Origin: Thamnidium elegans
Lineage: Eukaryota > Mucoromycota > Mucoromycetes > Mucorales > Mucoraceae
DNA length: 64,000 nt
Direction of reading: 5' to 3'
Assembly (NCBI GenBank): GCA_025201345.1
Contig: JAIXMG010000006.1
Span: 248,001-312,000, forward strand
Within the stretch, counting starts at the first letter, position 1; each line of letters starts with the position of its first letter. Under the pieces are notes generated by a model. It made no database searches. It saw only the letters and a program-made list of their open reading frames with translations, and had not been told where the DNA came from. The translations under genes and the position numbers were made by a program. Below are positions 46,501 to 56,320 of the stretch, in pieces.

Positions 46501-47017
46501 ATTTTTTTTTTACTGCACCCCCCGCTATCATTATTATTATTACTATTCTATTACTATAAACCTTTTTTTTTTTAAAAAAAAAAATATATATATATATAGT
46601 ACATGTGTTATTCTGCATGTACACATCATAACAATACCTTTTTTTTTTTTTTGCTCATTTATTATAATCGTATAAGATATATGTCATCTCGTTTGGATAT
46701 ATATTTTTATTGACAAATAGCAATCATTTGAAATGTATCCCACTATCAAAGCTAAGCTTCCCGGAAAGATTATGAAAATCATTGCAGCTTTTAAACTAAA
46801 ATCGTTCCGGAAAGGATCAGATTTCTTTAAATCAGTGTTACCATCGTGTAACCACAATCTGAACTAGCCCATTCCCCTACACCAGCCCAATTTTCTATCA
46901 GTCTTAAAAAAAAAAAAAAGTGAGTTTCTTTTTATTTTACTTCTTGCATAATACACTTTTTATTCACATAATTGCAGAGCGAGGTTTATTTAAAGGTAAG
47001 CGTCACTATAAGGGAAA
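46501..47017. other. Intergenic between RAB11 and pseudogene C
   Basis: RAB11 3' UTR with T/A tracts (46562-46592, 46639-46652). No gene seen. Confidence 0.5.
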
Positions 47018-48060
47018 GGTAATGTTTGGTAAAACTACAAAGGTAAAATGGTTTATGTTATACCCTTAAGACCTAGCAAGTGTTAGTGACTCGCCTGTTT
47101 CTATTACACTACGAACCATTTCTCTGTAGTATCTGCGCCGACTATATTTTTACGGAAAACCGGAGAGAGGGAAACATAAGATATACAGCTTACGGAGATC
47201 ACGTTTACATCAGTCCGGTCAAAAAGCGAAGTAGTCTTTATCGCCACAACTCGATAAACATGATCGTAAAGAGAAATATTTTTACATTCTTATCTAATTA
47301 ATTCATCGTTTCAAATTTTTGTATCGTTAAAGTATGAAAATTAGAGCTATGTATTAATATGCCACTATTCTGAACCATTACATATAGTAATATCATTATC
47401 ATGACTCCAAGCATTACTGCTCCGCGAACAAATTTTCTCGCCTAATCAAACACTATTTATTATATCCCCTTTATTTAAAAGGGCGAAAGCACAAGATAGA
47501 CCCCCATGAATTTAGTCCTTTAGCTTAATTTTGAGGATAAAATAGTCTGAAGGTGTATGAAAAACATAATTTTCACTATATACTTGTTGTAAAGCTCCAG
47601 TTATAAACTATTTATAGCATAACGGCCACTGTGTGAGATAACTGGCTGTAAAAGTTGGCCAAGTATCTCTGGTACAAGCAAACAAGATGTGTCAATCCCT
47701 AATTCTAAGTTACAATCGTCGGTTCCCTCTTCTAACACTCTTGCAAATATATATTGCAGTTGCGGATTATTGTTGAAATGTATGAAGCCAAAGAGATAAT
47801 CGATATTTATATAGTTCCTAAAGAGTTCCTTATTTAACAAAGAGGCAGATAGAGTACAGGCAGTATATTGTAAAACTGGCGTAAATGAGATTTCTATGTC
47901 ATCAGATGTTGCCAAACTTACTTTACAGCTACAAGAACTATTTAACTTTATAGTATTTGTATCGACGGTGTTTTGCGTACCAGAATTATTTTTAAGTACC
48001 TGTATATCTGAACATCTAACTGTCAGTAAAAAAAAAAAAAGATGCATTATTGAATTTATT
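47018..48060 (-). pseudogene. Truncated copy C of the A/B gene family
   Basis: Covers only the last two exons and the 3' flank of paralogue B (B region about 34150-35240). The penultimate exon remains open from about 47997 to 47630 (VLKNNSGTQNTVDTNTIKLN, then SASLLNKELFRNYINIDYLF), then reaches in-frame stops after the WPLCYK position. The last exon is heavily decayed. Homology ends inside the B intron on one side and in the B 3' flank on the other, so it arose by DNA-level duplication, not retrocopying. Confidence 0.8.
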
Positions 48061-48461
48061 CACGCAAGCACACTGGCACTACGGATATCAAGAGCGCGAG
48101 ACAAAGACTTATTATTATAATTACTGCAAACGCGTATCGTTCTAAATTCGTCTATTGTAATAACAAGAAGATCACCTACTGCTTCTTTTTTTTAACGTCC
48201 TCCAAAATACACCAGTTACTCCAGCCTAAAGCCCTTTAAACTTACGGTGTCTTTACCAAACTCAATAGCGAAGTAAATGACAAAGCCAATTAAAAAGGGT
48301 AAAACATCGTTTATGACTATATTGATGAAACTATCCATATAACACGTAAAATAAAATAAAAATAATTTAAATAAAACTACGATAACTTGGTTAACAAACT
48401 TTCGCTCTCCTATATTTTGACTACATGAATACTATAATAATCGCTCTTCGCCACTCATATA

Positions 48462-48498
<37 letters not shown>

Positions 48499-48504
48499 TT
48501 ACCT
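48061..48504. other. Intergenic with a long A tract
   Basis: No gene recognised. A poly-A tract of about 34 bases at 48462-48495 borders the left arm of the large inverted repeat. Confidence 0.5.
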
Positions 48505-48895
48505 AAACTGGAAGTTGAAACCCCCCCCCCCCCCTCTTGTTTGAAGTGCAAACTTCACTTTTTTTTTGACGTAGCGAAATGAGCCTACGGGGTGGTAAGA
48601 TAGTACTTTCTCGTAATTGTGGGAATATTTGGAAACCAATCAAGTTTGATTGTTTGGAATAAACAGATACGGGTGACTTTAGTTTAAAAATATCAGTGTG
48701 TACTAGCCAACTTGACACATTTATGCATTAATTTAGGGGGTTTGTGACACAAGAAATACTTGAATTTTGCCCCCACTTTCCATTTCCGTATATATCCACA
48801 GTTAAAACAACTTAGTTATAATATAAAATAAATATATATATATATATATATATATGATTCCGTTATGGTAAGCACAAGCTTTCCCGAGAAGGGAC

Positions 48896-48940
<45 letters not shown>

Positions 48941-49016
48941 ATGTTTTTTATTTATTTTTAAAAATGTTTATTACAAGTACATTATCTACAGCAATAGTAA
49001 CAGAATATATCATGAC
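48505..49016. repeat. Left arm of ~510-bp inverted repeat (upstream region of gene D1)
   Basis: Inverted at 53279-53785. The arm begins near a C14 tract (48521-48534; G15 at 53762-53776 on the other arm), includes the 5' region of gene D and a poly-A tract (48901-48937), and ends inside D exon 1. A third, more diverged copy in direct orientation lies at about 51840-52310 upstream of D2. Confidence 0.85.
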
Positions 49017-49624
49017 TGAAAAAATTAGAAGCATATTCTTTTTTAGCCAGTTATGCTTTTATATTTTTGTTTTAATTGATAAAGGTTTCATTTCCTTTAT
49101 TGAAGAAGCCATTTCCATGGTTTTCCCAAAAGAAATGATACATTTCTTTGTTAAAATTAGTATGTCATACAGTCTACATATATCTATATAGTACAAATAT
49201 TAAATTAAATATATTCATAGATACAAATCATTTACGTATGAAGGAGCTTGAATTCAAGTTGGCCAACCGGGCAAAGCAACTTCGATATTACGTAAATGAA
49301 TGTGAAAAGCTGAAAAATGCTTTTGTAAAAATTAAAGAAAAGGAAAACGCCGTTGAAGGAGAATTGAACCTTGCAAAGTGTCGCCTTAAAAACTCCGACG
49401 ACACTGTCGAAGTTTTGTTAAAAGCTATTGATGACTTAAATGTCAAAAAAAATAGTTTGTATCAAGAAATGGCCAACTTGACGGCAGGTATGTTAGCTAT
49501 ACCTGCTAACCATGACAAGGATATGGCAAAAATGCTTCAAACCCATTTTTTTACAATTACAGAGTTAAAAAGAAAAAACTCTGCTCTTAAAGACAAAGTC
49601 AGCGATGACTTTGTCTTTGTATAA
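48964..49624 (+). CDS. Gene D1: membrane-anchored coiled-coil protein, 2 exons, 199 aa, unrecognised
   Basis: Exons are 48964-49159 and 49221-49624 (600 nt, phase-1 GT-AG intron). It starts MFITSTLSTAIVTEYIMTEK. A hydrophobic stretch at about residues 21-48 (SIFFFSQLCFYIFVLIDKGF) could be a membrane anchor. Exon 2 encodes a Lys/Glu-rich predicted coiled coil (MKELEFKLANRAKQLRYYVN, then KIKEKENAVEGELNLAKCRL) ending SDDFVFV. Gene D2 has the same two-exon layout, the same intron phase and the same hydrophobic-then-coiled-coil order despite low sequence identity, which supports both being real genes. No known family. The in-frame GGTATG at 49488 could be a cryptic donor. Confidence 0.65.
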
Positions 49625-49669
49625 ATAAATCTTTTTTTTTTTAAAATAAAATTTATATATTATATATTT

Positions 49670-49705
<36 letters not shown>

Positions 49706-49910
49706 TATAACTTTTTAATAGTTAAGTCGTATATAATAAGACATAATCTACTGAATAGTGTTTCTTTATATGTTTGATCATTATTGAAATAAGATACTGT
49801 AGTCAAGTTTACTAGAAACCTAGCTAAAAGCTCTACTAATAAATAAATAAAAAAAAATTGAACAAGACCCAGAGAGTATGTACTTTATTTTACTTTTCAT
49901 ATTATAAAAA
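49625..49910. other. D1 3' flank
   Basis: T tract of about 33 bases at 49671-49703. The segment about 49780-49890 (GATACTGTAGTCAAGTTTAC onwards) is homologous, inverted, to 53178-53272, which shows that the right-hand D copy lost its gene body. Confidence 0.7.
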
Positions 49911-50001
49911 ATGTTATCCTTAACCTTCATTGAACTCTTCTTTGGCTCGTCGTTCATCTCGCTGTTTAGCGACAGCACAACCTCCCTTTTTCCAGCCTGA
50001 C
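49911..50001 (+). pseudogene. Gene E1: solitary first exon of E with a nonsense codon
   Basis: Reads MLSLTFIELFFGSSFISLFS, then DSTTSLFPA, then TGA where E2 has TGT (Cys). The donor GTAAGT at 50002 is kept, but no second exon follows; retroelement-like debris is found instead. It is 91 nt long to the donor, the same as exon 1 of E2 and E3. Confidence 0.7.
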
Positions 50002-50111
50002 GTAAGTAATTTTTTTTTTTTTTTAATCGATTAGGATTAAAAATTTTGCAGTTGTAGCATATGAATACATTTTTCACCTTTACTTTCAGACTTTTGTAAT
50101 GTTATTCCGTT

Positions 50112-50255
50112 ATGATTGTTTACGTCGATGACATAGTCATTCACTTCCACTCATTATATTTATTTCAACTAGTCAGCGCTGTCAAGATATGTATATATTT
50201 GCATAACGCAGGAAGTTTGTTTTTACCGACTTTCTGGTTCCATGTATACATTGTT
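50112..50255 (+). pseudogene. Reverse-transcriptase fragment (YVDD box)
   Basis: A short open segment reads MIVYVDDIVIHFHS, followed by LVSAVKICIYLHNAG. This matches the catalytic palm motif of retrotransposon reverse transcriptases (VYVDDI) and the following helix (HxxLVxxVxxxLxxAGL). Nothing else of a retroelement is readable around it, so it is a small relic. It occupies the place where E1 exon 2 would be expected. Confidence 0.45.
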
Positions 50256-51007
50256 ATATTAGTATTCCTAACAAACATAACAAAAAATAACCCTTTATAA
50301 ATGTCGTATTTGAGGATAATATTTATATTATATCATTACGAGAGAGTAATAAAGGAATCAAAGTAATATATAGATAAAATCATGTTTGTATACTACTTGT
50401 AAGCTTGCTTTAATTTTATTGGTGGATTGTTATCTTGGGAATCGTGTGAGAGAAAAAAAGGACACTTTAGTTTGATCGTACCGATCACTTGGGTTCTTAT
50501 ATTGCGTTGATAGAAGATAACATGTAACACGTAACATGTAACATATCGATATATTGATTTAACTATTAGCTGTGTATATAACCACGCCTACTTCTCTCTC
50601 TTTTATCAGTAGACGAAACGGCTTGTTTTTTAACTTATTATCTTTATCATAGATCTAAGGTTTGATGAAGAATGACGCCAGCTATCATGTGAATCGTGCA
50701 TGGAAAACTACACCCTTTTCTCTTATCGATTTAACACGCCAACCTTTTTTTTGATTTACTTAAAAACGGAAGGCAGCCGGGGGGGTATTTTAATAAAGGA
50801 TAGTGCCAACATTGTAAACAACTACATATAGTACTGAACATTATATCTAACTGAAGTTTACTTCAAATAATTATAATATAACTACATCTATAGCTAGAAA
50901 CAAACATGCGTATGATTAAGATAGGTATACTTGTAAACTTTTAAATAATAATAAATAAAAAAGAACCTCAAGATTTTTTTTTTTAAAATTTTTTTTTTTA
51001 TTTTATT
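50256..51007. other. AT-rich intergenic region
   Basis: No gene seen. A partial tandem repeat of ATGTAACACGTAACATGTAAC type lies at 50520-50545. Confidence 0.5.
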
Positions 51008-51637
51008 TTAATAACGAGCCATTCGATTGCCTATTATATAGACAATCGTCAGGCTCGTTATGAACAACATCATTTCGTTGTCAGGGTAAAAAAACCCTGA
51101 CTGATGTTCTTGTGACAACTCTTTTGCTGTTGAAGCAAAAGAGTTAGTTGGCTTCCCACCAGTGTTACAGGCTGATGGAAGCGTGGAGGGAGGAGAAGAA
51201 AGGGAAAGAGGCGGGCAAGAAGGCAAAGGACAGACTGGAAGAGGGCGAGAAGAGACAGGACAGAAAGGTTGAGGAGGAGGAGGAGCAACCATCAACCCTT
51301 TTGGCTCTTCTGCCAAAAGACAAACACCGTGAGGGAGTGCTTCTTTTAACAAATCCCTCGGAGAGAGGGATTTACAAACCTCCACAAGGAAGGTTTTTTG
51401 CCAACCTTGGCCAGAGGCGACGGTTGGCACAAAAGTGCAATAACTTTTAGTGTCCCAGAAGGACGAACCAGCTAGAAAATAAATAATAAAGAGTTCAAGA
51501 TTATTATTTATTTTTAAATGAAAAAAAAAAAAAAAAAGTTACTTACGACAGGCTGGAAAAAGAGAGGTTGTTCTGTCGCTAAACAGCGAGATGAAGGACG
51601 AGCCAAAGAAAAGTGCAATGAAGGTCAAAGGTAACAT
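51008..51637 (-). CDS. Gene E2: secreted or membrane Cys/Pro-rich protein, 2 exons, 184 aa, unrecognised
   Basis: Minus-strand exons are 51637-51547 and 51471-51008 (555 nt, GT-AG, phase 1). Exon 1 is almost exactly a signal peptide (MLPLTFIALFFGSSFISLFS). The mature part reads PACPGSSFWDTKSYCTFVPT, a region with VEVCKSLSPRDLLKEALPHG, then a Pro/Cys/Ser-rich stretch (PLPVCPLPSCPPLSLSSPPS) and SACNTGGKPTNSFASTAKEL. It ends with a hydrophobic segment MMLFITSLTIVYIIGN and a short RMARY tail, fitting a type I membrane protein. It is the only intact E copy of three. Exon 2 is almost tiled with perfect DNA hairpins. It diverges from D2. No family recognised. Confidence 0.6.
51011..51061. repeat. 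Terminal hairpin at the end of the E2 coding region
   Basis: ATAACGAGCC and CGATTG pair with CAATCG and GGCTCGTTAT around a short AT loop. The same hairpin ends the E3 copy at 54491-54541. Homology between the copies stops here, directly beside the E2 stop codon. Confidence 0.85.
51080..51145. repeat. Two adjacent hairpins inside E2 exon 2
   Basis: GTCAGGG/CCCTGAC (51080-51101) with an A-rich loop. Then AACTCTTTTGCT/AGCAAAAGAGTT (51117-51145), a perfect 12-bp stem with the 5-nt loop GTTGA on the plus strand. In E3 the loop of the second hairpin is the exact reverse complement. Confidence 0.9.
51298..51373. repeat. Two further hairpins inside E2 exon 2
   Basis: CTTTTGGC/GCCAAAAG (51298-51319, 6-nt loop) and AAATCCCTC/GAGGGATTT (51351-51373, 5-nt loop). 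Both are perfect stems, and both are conserved in E3. Confidence 0.9.
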
Positions 51638-52412
51638 TCTTTATAATATGAAAAGTAAAGAAAAAAAAATGAAAGCAAGTAGAAAAAAAAAAGTCTTATA
51701 CCAAAAAAAAAAACAAAAAAAAATTGGAATGACCTCATCACGAAATTTTTTCTGTTTACTTTGGTAATGTAGCAAATAACTTACATAAATATATATACAT
51801 TTGCCATATAGTTTATGGTAGACGTGGTATTTACTCTAAAAATCAACCCCCCTCTTTCTTTTTTTTTGACATGAGTTTTATCTGTAGCCAATAGACTTTA
51901 AAGAGGGGAAGGGAGTAGCGAAATAATCCTACTGGGTGCTAAGATAGGTAACTGTTTGGCTGTAAACAAATTCTTCTGTAAAAAAATTGTAGGAGAATCT
52001 AGATCATTATAAATTATCTCAAAGGGAACAACCAATGATTAAGAATAAATAAATAAAAACTGGTTTTTTCTTTATATTTTTATTACAGTGGGAATATTTG
52101 GATACCAAATTTGATTAGTATAAAAATATCAGTGTTTACTACGGCTATTTTTTTTTTTTTGACTTCTGTTATCTTTATTTGAACGAACTTTCTTCATATA
52201 TGCATTAATTCCGGAAGTTTGTGAAACAAGATAAAATCAAACTCTACTCCTTACTTTCCATTTCCACAGTTAAAACGACTTATGACATATATGTATATAA
52301 ACACTATGGGAACAGCGAAATAACCTCATTAGTTAACAAGATGACGAAATATTAATTTATAAAATACGAATTTTACGCCACTTACAAAAAACAGTCGTAG
52401 TGTATATAACTA

Positions 52413-52446
<34 letters not shown>

Positions 52447-52492
52447 TATTTCTTTCTTTTAGTTATTCAATTTAATTATCAAGTTTCCAATA
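51638..52492. promoter_or_regulatory. Shared divergent upstream region of E2 and D2
   Basis: 855 bp between the two start codons. The E-proximal part (an ATGAGGTCATTCC-type block when read on the minus strand, about 51728-51740) recurs upstream of E3. The D-proximal part (about 51840-52310, with GTGGGAATATTTGGAxACCAA and TTTCCATTTCCACAGTTAAAAC) recurs upstream of D1 and D3. A T tract of about 30 bases precedes D2. Conservation in all copies suggests it is the promoter. Confidence 0.6.
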
Positions 52493-53113
52493 ATGTCTTT
52501 TATTAACGAAATGCCAACAGAAACCATGCTTGAATATATAGCATCTGAAAAAATGAGAACATGTTTTTTTCTTTTACAAACATGTTTCTTCATTTTTGTT
52601 TTAAAAGAAAAGAGATTTTTTGCCCTTGTTTTAAAAACCATTAAAATGGTTTGTTTCAAATTTGGTAAGTAATTGAAGATACACCGATATATATTACGCG
52701 TTATACTAAAAAAACATTGTCTAGAGGAATGCAGTTCGCGCATTGAAGAACTCGAGAAGGTTTTGATAGAAACAGAAATGTTTCTTCAAACCTTCACCAA
52801 CGAGTATCAGAAAATGCACACTGCAATCCTCAACAGCCCACACAGGGTATATACGTTGGAGACTGACGTGGAGCTCGCAAGAGGCGATATAAAAATCACT
52901 GATAATTATATCAGTGATTTGTCAAAAGAACACTCAAAGCTGAAAGCTGAAACAAGCAGTTTGTATAAAGACATCGATAGTTTGAAGGCGATCAAGCTAT
53001 CGATGGAAGAAAAGAATGCCGAGGAGAAGACTAAAATTGCCAAGCGCAATTTTGTAACAATTAATAAATTAAAAGAAGAAAACGCAAAGCTCAGAAAGTA
53101 CGCAGAATCTTAA
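52493..53113 (+). CDS. Gene D2: membrane-anchored coiled-coil protein, 2 exons, 186 aa, unrecognised
   Basis: Exons are 52493-52664 and 52725-53113 (561 nt, phase-1 GT-AG intron as in D1). It starts MSFINEMPTETMLEYIASEK. A hydrophobic stretch (CFFLLQTCFFIFVL) and a second one (FFALVLKTIKMVCF) follow. Exon 2 is a predicted coiled coil (EECSSRIEELEKVLIETEMF, SKEHSKLKAETSSLYKDIDS) ending KEENAKLRKYAES. It aligns with D1 in layout (EYIxxEKxR, SLYxD/E, FFTITELKRKNSAL against FVTINKLKEENAKL). Intact. No known family; a role in a membrane-tethered complex is only a guess. Confidence 0.65.
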
Positions 53114-53267
53114 GTCAACCACGACTTTAAGTTTGTTTAGCTTCTTTTGTAAAATAAATTCATTTTTGTATCAAATAAAGTACATATCCTCTTGGTCTTG
53201 TTCAATTTTTTTATATTTTTTTTTAGTAAAGCTTTTAGTTAGGTTTCTAGTAAACTTGACTACAGTA
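53114..53267. other. D2 3' flank meeting the D3 3' flank
   Basis: Convergent 3' ends. The stretch from about 53178 is the inverted copy of the D1 3' flank (49780-49890). Confidence 0.6.
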
Positions 53268-53330
53268 TCATAGTTCAATCATGATATACTCTGTTACTAT
53301 TGCTATAGATAATGTACTTGTAATAAACAT
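53268..53330 (-). pseudogene. Gene D3: truncated D copy
   Basis: On the minus strand only the first 18 codons of a D1-like gene remain (MFITSTLSIAIVTEYIMI), followed by two extra codons and a stop. Compared with D1, about 765 bp (roughly 49016-49780: rest of exon 1, intron, exon 2, 3' UTR start) are deleted in one step. Its 5' region is intact and near-identical to that of D1. Confidence 0.75.
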
Positions 53331-53353
53331 TTTTAAAAATAAATAAAAAACAT

Positions 53354-53396
<43 letters not shown>

Positions 53397-53785
53397 GTCC
53401 CTTCTCGGGAAAGCTTGTGCTTACCATAACGGAATCATATATATATATATATATATATATATTTATTTTATATCATAACTAAGTTGTTTTAACTGTGGAT
53501 ATATAAGGAAATGGAAAGTGGGGGTAAGTTGGTTAGTATACACTGATATTTTTAGACTAAAGTCACCCGTATCTGTTTACTCCAAATAATTAAACTTGAT
53601 TGGTTTCCAAATATTCCCACAGTTACAAGAAAGTACTATCTTACCACCCCGTAGGTTCATTTCGCTACTCCCTTCGCCTCTTTAAAAACTATTAGTTATA
53701 GAATAAAACTCACGTCAAAAAAAGAAAAAATAAAGGGAAGTATGTACGTCAAACTAGAGGAGGGGGGGGGGGGGGGTTTGAAGTA
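53279..53785. repeat. Right arm of ~510-bp inverted repeat
   Basis: Inverse of 48505-49016, including the T tract (53357-53392), the AT dinucleotide run (53437-53462) and the G15 tract (53762-53776). It forms the upstream region of D3. Together the arms make a 5.3-kb inverted structure around D1-E1-E2-D2. Confidence 0.85.
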
Positions 53786-53937
53786 AATACAAGTCATTTT
53801 AAAAGATGGACATATGTGGTCAAGTTCAAAAAAAAAAAAAAAAAATTGTGTAAACAAAATTTATTCATATGAGGTCATTCCTAATTTTTTTTTGGTATAC
53901 AAGACTTTTTTCTATTCGTTACATATTATAAACAACA

Positions 53938-54034
53938 ATACTAGCTATAAGCGCCATCGCCCTCTTCCTAGACTCGTCCTTTTTATCTCTGTTCAGTAAC
54001 GGCACGACCTCTGTTCTCCTAGCCTGTCGTAAGT

Positions 54035-54075
<41 letters not shown>

Positions 54076-54432
54076 ATTTAAAATAAATAGTAATCTTGAC
54101 CTCTTTATTATTTTCTAGCCGGTCCACCCTTTTGGGACACAGAAAGCTACTGCGCTTTTGTCCCAACTGTCGTCTCGCACCACGCTTGGCGAAAAGACTT
54201 TGTTACAAAGGTTTGTAAATCCCTCTCTCCGAGGGATTTGTTAAAAGAAGTACTCCCTCCTAGTGTTTGTCTTTTGGCAGAAGAGCCAAAAGTGTTGATG
54301 GTTACTTTTCTCCCAGTCTGTCCTTTGCCTTCTTGCCCGCCTCTTTCCTCTTCTTCTCCTCCCTCCCCGCTTCCATCAGTCTGTAACACTGGTTGGAAGC
54401 CAACTAACTTTTTTGCTGTTGAAGCAAAATAG
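53938..54432 (+). pseudogene. Gene E3: E copy without start codon and with early stop
   Basis: Exon 1, 53938-54028 (91 nt as in E2), begins ATA instead of ATG (ILAISAIALFLDSSFLSLFS). Exon 2, 54119-54432, reads GPPFWDTESYCAFVPTVVSH, then SPRDLLKEVLPPSVCLLAEE, then PVCPLPSCPPLSSSSPPSPL, and stops at NFFAVEAK-TAG. Downstream DNA still matches E2 to the terminal hairpin, but with 8 instead of 7 T in the GTCAGGG hairpin loop. It diverges from D3 as E2 does from D2. Splice sites are kept, so decay is recent. Confidence 0.75.
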
Positions 54433-54490
54433 TTGTCACAAGAACATCAGTCAGGGTTTTTTTTACCCTGACAACGAAATGATGTTGTTC

Positions 54491-54541
54491 ATAACGAGCC
54501 TGACGATTGTCTATATAATAAACAATCGAATGGCTCGTTAT
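54491..54541. repeat. Terminal hairpin at the end of the E3 copy
   Basis: Counterpart of 51011-51061; marks the right end of the duplicated D/E region. Confidence 0.85.
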
Positions 54542-54630
54542 TATAATTATTTTACACTGTACTACTTTTTATGCTATTATTTTTAAAAAAATAATAGCTA
54601 CGGTCATCACCTTTAAATCCACTAGAACTA

Positions 54631-55290
54631 TCAGTCTCTTAGTAACGTGATCACCATGATCGCTTTTAAATTATCTCTTCTCGTTGCAACTACTTTACTT
54701 GGTTCGGTAACATAGCCAGCATGAGACTTGATACGAGCTTTATTGACGTTATTAGGATCATCTTCGAGACCGAAGCAGGAAATTTCACTTGTATAGGAGT
54801 TGCGGTGTTGAAGAGCAGCAAAATATTGCATTTGTTTTGAAAGTCCATTATTACATCTTGGTACTATGATATATGGCTTTGAATAGTAGTAGATGATTCA
54901 ATTATATACTTGACTAAAAATGTATATTATTGTCATGTCCTGTGGTATTACAGACTCTTCAACATGACGACTTGAGTGCATGCGAAGATCATTACTTTCT
55001 GATCGATTTAACAAACGAATCAAATACGGTAACAATATTACGTTATTGTTTTCATTAGGGGTATCAGCGCTTCGGATAGTCTTAATGCCGTGATATTTCA
55101 AGAAAAAGTCTGTGCTCTTTAAACTTTCATTAAAGCTATGTTCGTAATTTTAACAGCTAAAAGTAACTTTTACCAAAAGGTACCACCATTATTTCCGTTT
55201 ATAAATTTTGGTTCCTTGTCCAAGTTCGTAAAATACAACGAATTCGTCTGGGAATAATCTGCGTATTACAGATACTTTTAAAACAGTGCT
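54631..55290 (-). pseudogene. Decayed mucoralean-type gene
   Basis: Minus-strand fragments in order: RRLFPDEFVVFYELGQGTKI (about 55290-55190), then after stops TDFFLKYHGIKTIRSADTPN and NNVILLPYLIRLLNRSESND (to 54898), then a changed frame PYIIVPRCNNGLSKQMQYFA, LQHRNSYTSEISCFGLEDDP and KAIMVITLLRD, stop at 54631. The fragments look like one multi-exon gene with stop codons and frame changes. I believe similar text recurs in mucoralean genomes but cannot name the family. Confidence 0.45.
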
Positions 55291-55549
55291 AGTTATATGG
55301 CCATTTACTGATTAATTACCTTCTTTTGATTTCCCTTATCTAAGGGAGTACGTGTCATTCGCTTCGCTTTACATAAAAATATATAAGGTTAATGAAAGCT
55401 AAACGCATACTTTCTTATATAACTTACTAGAATAATCCGACCCCTCTGCAGAAGATAGACGTTTTTTTTTTTTTCATTTAATCGAGTTTTATGAGGTAGT
55501 TAAAAAAAAATATGCATTAAGAATGCCTAAATTAGGACTAACGCTTGTT

Positions 55550-55622
55550 GGACCACGCGGTGTGTACATAGGGTGTCTCGGATCGAGCATCCTATTGCGA
55601 AAAATAACTACGTGCACTCCCG
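55550..55622. repeat. MITE-like element copy 1 (degenerate)
   Basis: Inverse of 56396-56480. It retains GGACCACG at one end and GTGTGTACATAGGGTGTCT inside. The other end has lost the CCGTGGTCCG terminus. Confidence 0.7.
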
Positions 55623-55816
55623 TTTTCAAATAAAACTAACATTAGAGTTGTTTGTTCTTTTTGTTATTTTATATTACTTATACACACCATAAAATATTTA
55701 AAACCATTTTTTATGTCTCGCATTCATACTATACTTCGTATTTTATTATCTTTCTCTGAAAATATAAAGGAAATAAGGTAGATAAAATATAGTTTATTAA
55801 GAGAAAAAAAAAGTTA

Positions 55817-56320
55817 TTATTCTTCATCGGAAGATTCGATTACAACAAGCTCGTCTTTTTCTGCGTCAAAAGGCTTATCTTCTGTATGTTTGGGAAATTG
55901 CCAAAAAAGATTCCATGTCAATTTAAACAACGTAGCATAGGATCCGTCTACGTGGAAGTACATATGGTTAACAGAAGGATATGACATACGCCTATGGCCG
56001 AACTCGACAGTCAACCAGAGTGCATTTTTTATATTTTGAAGGTGGTATGACCGTATTTTTACTTTTGGTTTTACAGAAACCTTAAGTGAGTGGTTCATAA
56101 AGATGTCTTTTATTCCCGATGTCGAAATATGTACATATAGGTATGCTGTAAGTATCCGCAACAACTTGAACACAGTCAGGATAGTTAAACCAAATAGACA
56201 TGATCGTTCTTCTATACTCATACATATCTAATTTGATGCTCCTTTCTAGGCTGACAACGTCGAAATCAAAATCTTTACATACATGTTCTTGTTGGATTCA
56301 CATTCTACGAGCATATCTTT
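55817..56320 (-). pseudogene. Remnant possibly of an OTU-protease-like mobile-element gene
   Basis: Minus strand: EYRRTIMSIWFNYPDCVQVV, then DTYSIPICTYFDIGNKRHLY in one frame, and after a frame change SVKPKVKIRSYHLQNIKNAL, TVEFGHRRMSYPSVNHMYFH, ending KDELVVIESSDEE (stop at 55817). The order WF..PDC.Q..ADT...PI, then LWLTVE, then Y.S.NHMYFH recalls OTU-like protease domains carried by some mucoralean mobile elements. The usual catalytic HW is not visible. Low confidence in the family. Confidence 0.35.

Follow-up and report, generated by a model that had tools for sequence, protein, structure and literature searches.

A pair of small genes, here named D and E, occurs in several linked copies in a 64,000-nucleotide stretch of the genome of Thamnidium elegans (Mucorales, Mucoraceae; 34.1 Mb in 64 contigs). 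The whole stretch, C56:248001-312000, is referred to as the window. We consider it fairly probable that D is a lineage-specific membrane coiled-coil gene and E its small partner, and that duplication has spread the two and gene conversion has reshuffled them.

The first-pass annotation of the window had placed three copies of the pair in the order D1> E1> <E2 D2> <D3 E3>, with two D genes and a single E gene intact. Searches with tblastn and blastn confirmed the order, and gene models the count of intact genes: E2, D1 and D2 are open, and E1, E3 and D3 are remnants (Table 1). D1 and D2 had also been described as strongly diverged proteins with similar upstream regions. The first part of this claim holds (29.5% identity, E 7e-23), but the upstream similarity is restricted to blocks of 71-95% identity, with no continuous stretch. 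The upstream regions of D1 and D3 are 94-96% identical. Two types of D are found, alpha (D1-like) and beta (D2-like). Window D2 and the copies at C56:321k and C48 belong to beta1, those at C25 and C3 and, by similarity, at C56:328k and C10 to beta2.

The genome was searched with one D-alpha and one E protein as queries. At least 27 exon-level matches were found for D and at least 43 for E, and they form 12 clusters on nine contigs. DNA matches without D/E coding matches (C45, C16, C56:13k, C56:21k, C12:778k, C12:1467k and others) were excluded as clusters. Both genes are present in all 12, with a largest separation of 2288 bp from an E match to a D match and of 1795 bp from a D match to an E match. 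Thus, the amplification of D and E as a linked pair is real and larger than the annotation had claimed. The frequent decay of copies was also recovered. Of the 20 E copies modelled, 9 are open, as are 7 of the 8 D-alpha and 5 of the 9 D-beta copies. In these numbers, each arm of the palindromes described below was counted, so that arms enter twice. Fragments were omitted, namely those of D at C10 (beta), C1, C19 and C56:355k and three of E, of which two lie on C3 and one at C56:1072k. One of the nine open E copies (C56:1074k) has lost the usual splice donor, and the E models of C10, C12 and C56d use improbable splice sites. D is open without an open E at C1, C12, C19, C23 and probably C56:1073k, where E lacks the usual splice donor. 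An open E without an open D is found only at C48, where D is frameshifted. As for the ends of E, the copies at C1:498141 and C12:1478673 have a similar alternative tail (LLKEAPFVSS) from the same point, and a third copy, C56:355657, breaks near the point where these tails begin.

Self-comparison revealed near-perfect inverted repeats at C48, C3 and C25, in the order <D E> spacer <E D>. The arms measure 4476 bp (C48, cut by the contig start), 4792 bp (C3) and 5870 bp (C25), and the spacers 1225, 1616 and 1232 bp, respectively; one E of the C3 palindrome has no exon 2. Arm-to-arm identity is 99.9% at all three loci, which exceeds the 99% mark of gene-converting palindromes. Four columns differ between the arms of each palindrome. 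At C48 and C3, these concern homopolymer length only, and at C25 they comprise two homopolymer differences and two substitutions at the arm edge, the only substitutions among all 12 columns. The spacers of C25 and C48 are 96% identical, and their inner arm boundary is the same to within about 2 bases. The simplest reading of the two loci compared is that they likely derive from one ancestral palindrome, older than their split. Between the same loci, D exon 2 differs by 23%, whereas the segment on the 3' side of E, named R, differs by only 1%. A difference of this size between loci whose own arms are identical points to arm-to-arm gene conversion, which likely continues and keeps the arms alike. 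Given that R is 99% identical, a later replacement of D exon 2 could account for the contrast between C25 and C48, and an assembly effect could play a part.

The palindromes contain further sequences. An orphan open reading frame (ORF) of 180 aa lies in the spacer; it is open in C48:4736-5275 and broken in C25:311770-312305 and C56:12326-12857. Both arms at C3 carry an acidic-rich orphan ORF of 263 aa, named G (C3:579112-579900 and 588843-589631). In R of C25 (C25:313342-313484) there is an insert, some 140 bp long and with inverted ends, that resembles a miniature inverted-repeat transposable element; R of C48, C3 and the window did not show it.

Between loci, the alignment of C25, C48, C3 and the window indicates that the D/E unit is a mosaic whose segments support different groupings. 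Identity among these copies is 87-99% in R, in the upstream region common to E and D, and beyond D. In D exon 2 it is 76-78% between beta1 and beta2, and in E exon 1, some 90 bases long, it is low as well, at 78-91%. A divergence scan (60 columns, 1000 column shuffles, columns treated as independent) placed the 99% line at 0.200. The only stretches above it are 52656-52876 and 52906-53016, in the D intron and exon 2; the value for a fixed window placed on E exon 1 is 0.194. Quartet-informative sites were counted along 3.7 kb, with compartment limits which, here and in the identity values, lie up to 2 bases (D) or 9 bases (E exon edges) off the final exon limits. The sites supporting C25+C48, C25+C3 and C25+window number 8:0:0 in R, 15:3:4 in the common upstream region, 0:0:9 in the E intron and exon 1, and 1:59:0 in D exon 2. 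Hence, C25 groups with C48 in R and upstream, with the window in the E intron and exon 1, and with C3 from D exon 1 onward. Between loci, no part of the unit is better conserved than R (97-99%).

An inverted sister of the window arrangement lies at C56:319448-324050, about 17 kb away; the window arrangement is looser than the palindromes. The two copies differ in 65 alignment columns in 3.3 kb. Most of these columns belong to homopolymers, to a joining edge, to D exon 2 and to one tract of E exon 2 (51050-51330). The identity of the two copies is 93.0% beyond D; between R and the D 3' flank it amounts to 98-100%, apart from E exon 2 (97.3%) and D exon 2 (95.1%). The D of the sister copy is frameshifted. 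As silent changes dominate, D exon 2 of this pair looks like an older exon version and not like a fast-changing protein.

Other accounts of the divergence and of the spread were considered. A mutation hotspot in D exon 2 was dropped, as C25 and C3 are 96% identical there. Divergence changing smoothly outward from the palindrome centre was dropped as well, since identity climbs again beyond D. A discrete mobile element seems unlikely: no constant ends were seen, and C25, C3 and C48 are unlike in the length of their arms and in their outer ends. Homology continues beyond the C25 arm into C48. No Pfam match to a transposase was found in the spacer ORF, D, E or G, and no search was aimed at target-site duplications.

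Selection was estimated as omega, the ratio of nonsynonymous to synonymous substitution rates (dN/dS), from re-derived models with one arm per palindrome, excluding the C56d E and all broken copies. Pairs were pooled without a tree, so that the intervals are rough. The pooled omega was 0.32 for D-alpha (bootstrap 0.24-0.42, n=7), 0.45 for D-beta (0.30-0.67, n=3) and 0.43 for E (0.31-0.60, n=6), and six frame-shifted controls gave 0.68-1.28. Judged by these ratios, D is under purifying selection and E less surely so. The annotation had named a neutral dN/dS between D1 and D2 among the findings that would count against it; in the values pooled inside each of the two D types, dN/dS is not neutral.

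The product of D is probably a coiled-coil protein anchored in the membrane, in which exon 1 supplies a hydrophobic helix and exon 2 most of a second helix some 140 residues long. The predicted structure contains helices at residues 3-53 and 56-195, with a mean predicted local distance difference test score (pLDDT) of 75. E is a small protein containing proline and cysteine, whose signal peptide and hydrophobic ends were judged by eye; AlphaFold gave no confident fold for it (pLDDT 40). In Pfam, none of D, E, the spacer ORF, G and an orphan family F described below had a match above cut-off, and weak coiled-coil matches were returned for D only. Pfam includes a Wtf model, which was not among the matches at E<=1 for D1, D2, E2, P0010, P0011, P0013, P0018, P0006 and P0009, in a search where HMMER filters discard most matches above E 0.1. 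Rfam gave no match at gathering score in window positions 47000-56000.

Homologues of D and E exist beyond this genome; their absence had been named in the annotation as a point against its reading. Relatives of D were found in T. elegans (locus-tag series BDF21DRAFT and INT48), in Helicostylum pulchrum (P0013, 65% over 199 aa, and P0017) and on one "Umbelopsis" contig, and relatives of E in T. elegans and H. pulchrum (P0009, with a different C-terminus). The Umbelopsis protein P0003 is D-beta2-like, comes from a contig of 1277 bp under the name Umbelopsis sp. WA50703 and is identical to the C3 copy in 119 of 122 residues; it is probably contamination, otherwise transfer. A second T. elegans assembly contains near-copies of window D2 (P0002, 98% over 73%) and of the C19 D (P0015, 127 of 128 residues). 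A family specific to Thamnidium and its relatives is the best reading of these searches, which catch only proteins with short exact words in common, so that wider relatives could escape. No published description of the family was found in a literature search covering titles and abstract openings.

Inverted and segmental duplication would have spread the D/E pair, and no element ends were recognised. Gene conversion would homogenise and reshuffle the copies, arm to arm in the palindromes and ectopically between loci, as their identity and mosaicism suggest. Of the two, D is better conserved, and E is kept at some loci and has decayed at others. D may anchor in the membrane and pair through its coiled coil, with E as a putative secreted or membrane partner; the two most likely act together at the membrane or cell surface. 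If the coiled coil sets pairing specificity, keeping or swapping exon-2 types would have consequences. Where D is kept and E is broken, a useful D with a dispensable E is preferred over an antidote outlasting its toxin.

Several points weigh against this explanation. The arms show hardly any substitutions, which could in part be due to a collapse in the assembly. Confidence is low in the predicted exon-1 helix of D (pLDDT 52-61 by block). The omega of E by thirds is 0.19, 1.37 and 0.76, so that the signal comes mostly from the first third, one shifted-frame control is as low as 0.68, and the first third of D-beta gives 0.95. The shuffle test rests on the independence of columns. Moreover, the switch in grouping begins in D exon 1 and runs past D (7, 10, 59, 6 and 10 sites); the exchanged block is therefore wider than exon 2, though divergence peaks in exon 2. 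Finally, window and sister differ in D exon 2 by 10 silent and 2 replacement changes in about 82 codons, in counts that leave out the out-of-frame rows (C48R E, C10 E, w_E3 and C56b_328 D). This dominance of silent changes counts against protein diversification in that pair.

An ordinary decaying multigene family is an unlikely alternative to duplication and conversion of a functional pair. Segmental duplication and random gene conversion would act on an exon 2 without special function, D would have a mundane role and E would be a hitchhiker. Decay at most clusters, weak constraint in two thirds of E and transposon genes near the clusters on C23, C12 and C56:358k would fit such a family, but no divergence island is significant outside the D intron and exon 2, none of the 12 clusters has lost E from beside D, and E is open at several loci.

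It is rather improbable that the pair is a two-gene toxin-antidote killer family. E would be a toxin-like secreted or membrane protein and D the antidote, duplication and gene conversion would make new specificities, and D-only copies would be leftover antidotes. Lineage restriction, co-amplification, the many broken copies and mosaicism agree with this idea, as do the four to five clusters with an open D and no open E, against C48 alone for the reverse. The selfish or conflict-driven pair of the annotation would be one reading of these patterns. The wtf family of Schizosaccharomyces is comparable: it has pseudogenes, patchwork segment histories through nonallelic gene conversion and predicted antidote-only members (PMC6526906), and recombination can create new specificities (PMC13160552). 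D/E is likewise a lineage-restricted multicopy family with pseudogenes, patchwork gene segments and proteins with hydrophobic segments. In contrast, wtf drivers produce poison and antidote from one gene as two isoforms, whereas D and E are two divergent genes, and no Wtf model was among the Pfam matches of the nine proteins. Purifying selection on D and the retention of E beside a frameshifted D at C48 also argue against a killer family. The presence of P0002 and P0015 in the second assembly means that those D copies do not look freshly polymorphic.

In Neurospora, Sk-2 and Sk-3 have a two-gene architecture, with one gene killing and one protecting. Such a linked killer and protector is one possible reading of D/E, but Sk elements are large multi-gene regions. 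The killer and resistance genes of Sk-2 and Sk-3 are the subject of PMC6185902. It seems equally doubtful that D and E form a mucoralean system of recognition or killing with two genes, either poison-antidote or self/non-self; its palindromes would keep matched D-E copies identical by gene conversion, and D exon 2 would persist as several old specificity types (alpha, beta1, beta2) swapped between loci. If the pair were a killer system, it could be a first candidate in Mucorales, since no title among the papers listed by a literature search was on drive in this order.

An origin of the palindromes in faulty assembly, for instance from inverted chimeric reads, is very unlikely. In its favour, hardly any substitutions separate the arms and C48 is a 24.8-kb contig beginning inside an arm, but the spacers are 1.2-1.6 kb long, the flanks of C3 and C25 are unlike on the two sides, and the diverged loci C25 and C48 have the same spacer and inner boundary.

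The palindromes resemble those with arm-to-arm gene conversion on mammalian X and willow sex chromosomes (PMC8981503, PMC7023750), which have gene-bearing inverted arms more than 99% identical around a spacer. Unlike these, the D/E arms are about 5 kb long and lie at dispersed fungal loci with no known sex linkage. With T. elegans, an early-diverging fungus would join the genomes in which palindromes carry genes and undergo gene conversion, and the D/E copies provide a natural contrast between near-identical copies and one coding exon of much deeper history.

The features of the window are given in Table 1. The introns of D1, D2 and E2 are all GT-AG. NCBI models were compared with our own by eye. 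P0010 (C12 D), P0012 (C19 D), P0005 (C48 E) and P0006 (C3 E) are identical to ours, and in P0011 (C1 D) a single residue is different where the exons meet. The model of a sister copy of D1, P0014 (C56:1073k D), has the same exon join as D1 and as our own model of that locus, from which it differs in starting later. P0001, the NCBI model of window D2, is marked partial; it has the same join, starts 6 residues later and departs from our reading after residue 145. The C-terminus of D2 is therefore supported by the open frame and by other copies of the gene, but not by P0001.

Table 1 Features of the D/E locus (window positions)
Feature	Position	Strand	Details
D1 (D-alpha type), open, 199 aa	48964..49624	+	exon 1 48964-49159; intron 49160-49220 (61 bp, GTATGT..TAG); exon 2 49221-49624
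Relic of D-beta 3' flank, between D1 and E1	49777..49890	-	blastn against D2 3' flank, 90%
E1, exon 1 alone	49911..50003	+	in-frame TGA; without exon 2
R, 3' side of E	50022..50735	.	no gene recognised; 97-99% identity among C25, C48, C3 and window
E2, open, 184 aa	51008..51637	-	exon 1 51637-51547; intron 51546-51472 (75 bp); exon 2 51471-51008
Upstream region common to divergent E2/D2	51638..52492	.	91-94% identity among C25, C48, C3 and window
D2 (D-beta1 type), open, 186 aa	52493..53113	+	exon 1 52493-52664; intron 52665-52724 (60 bp); exon 2 52725-53113
Divergence island	52656..53016	+	end of D2 exon 1, intron, most of exon 2; column shuffles and quartet counts
D3, 5' stub of D-alpha gene	53274..53527	-	upstream region and about 19 codons; 96% identical to D1 start region
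E3, broken	53938..54541	+	ATA for ATG, stops, frame change

Other genes were noted beside the D/E clusters. Copies of the orphan family F lie at C56:324975-325523 and C19:155453-155866, and a relative (50%) at C28:260779-261321 is contained in a 620-aa open frame; in Pfam, neither this relative nor the F copy on C56 had a match. A reverse transcriptase ORF (C23:273302-274105) and a Tc-type transposase ORF (C12:1469038-1470074) are each found near a D/E cluster. At C56:358364-359092, the end of a MULE transposase ORF lies at most 10 bases from an E start.

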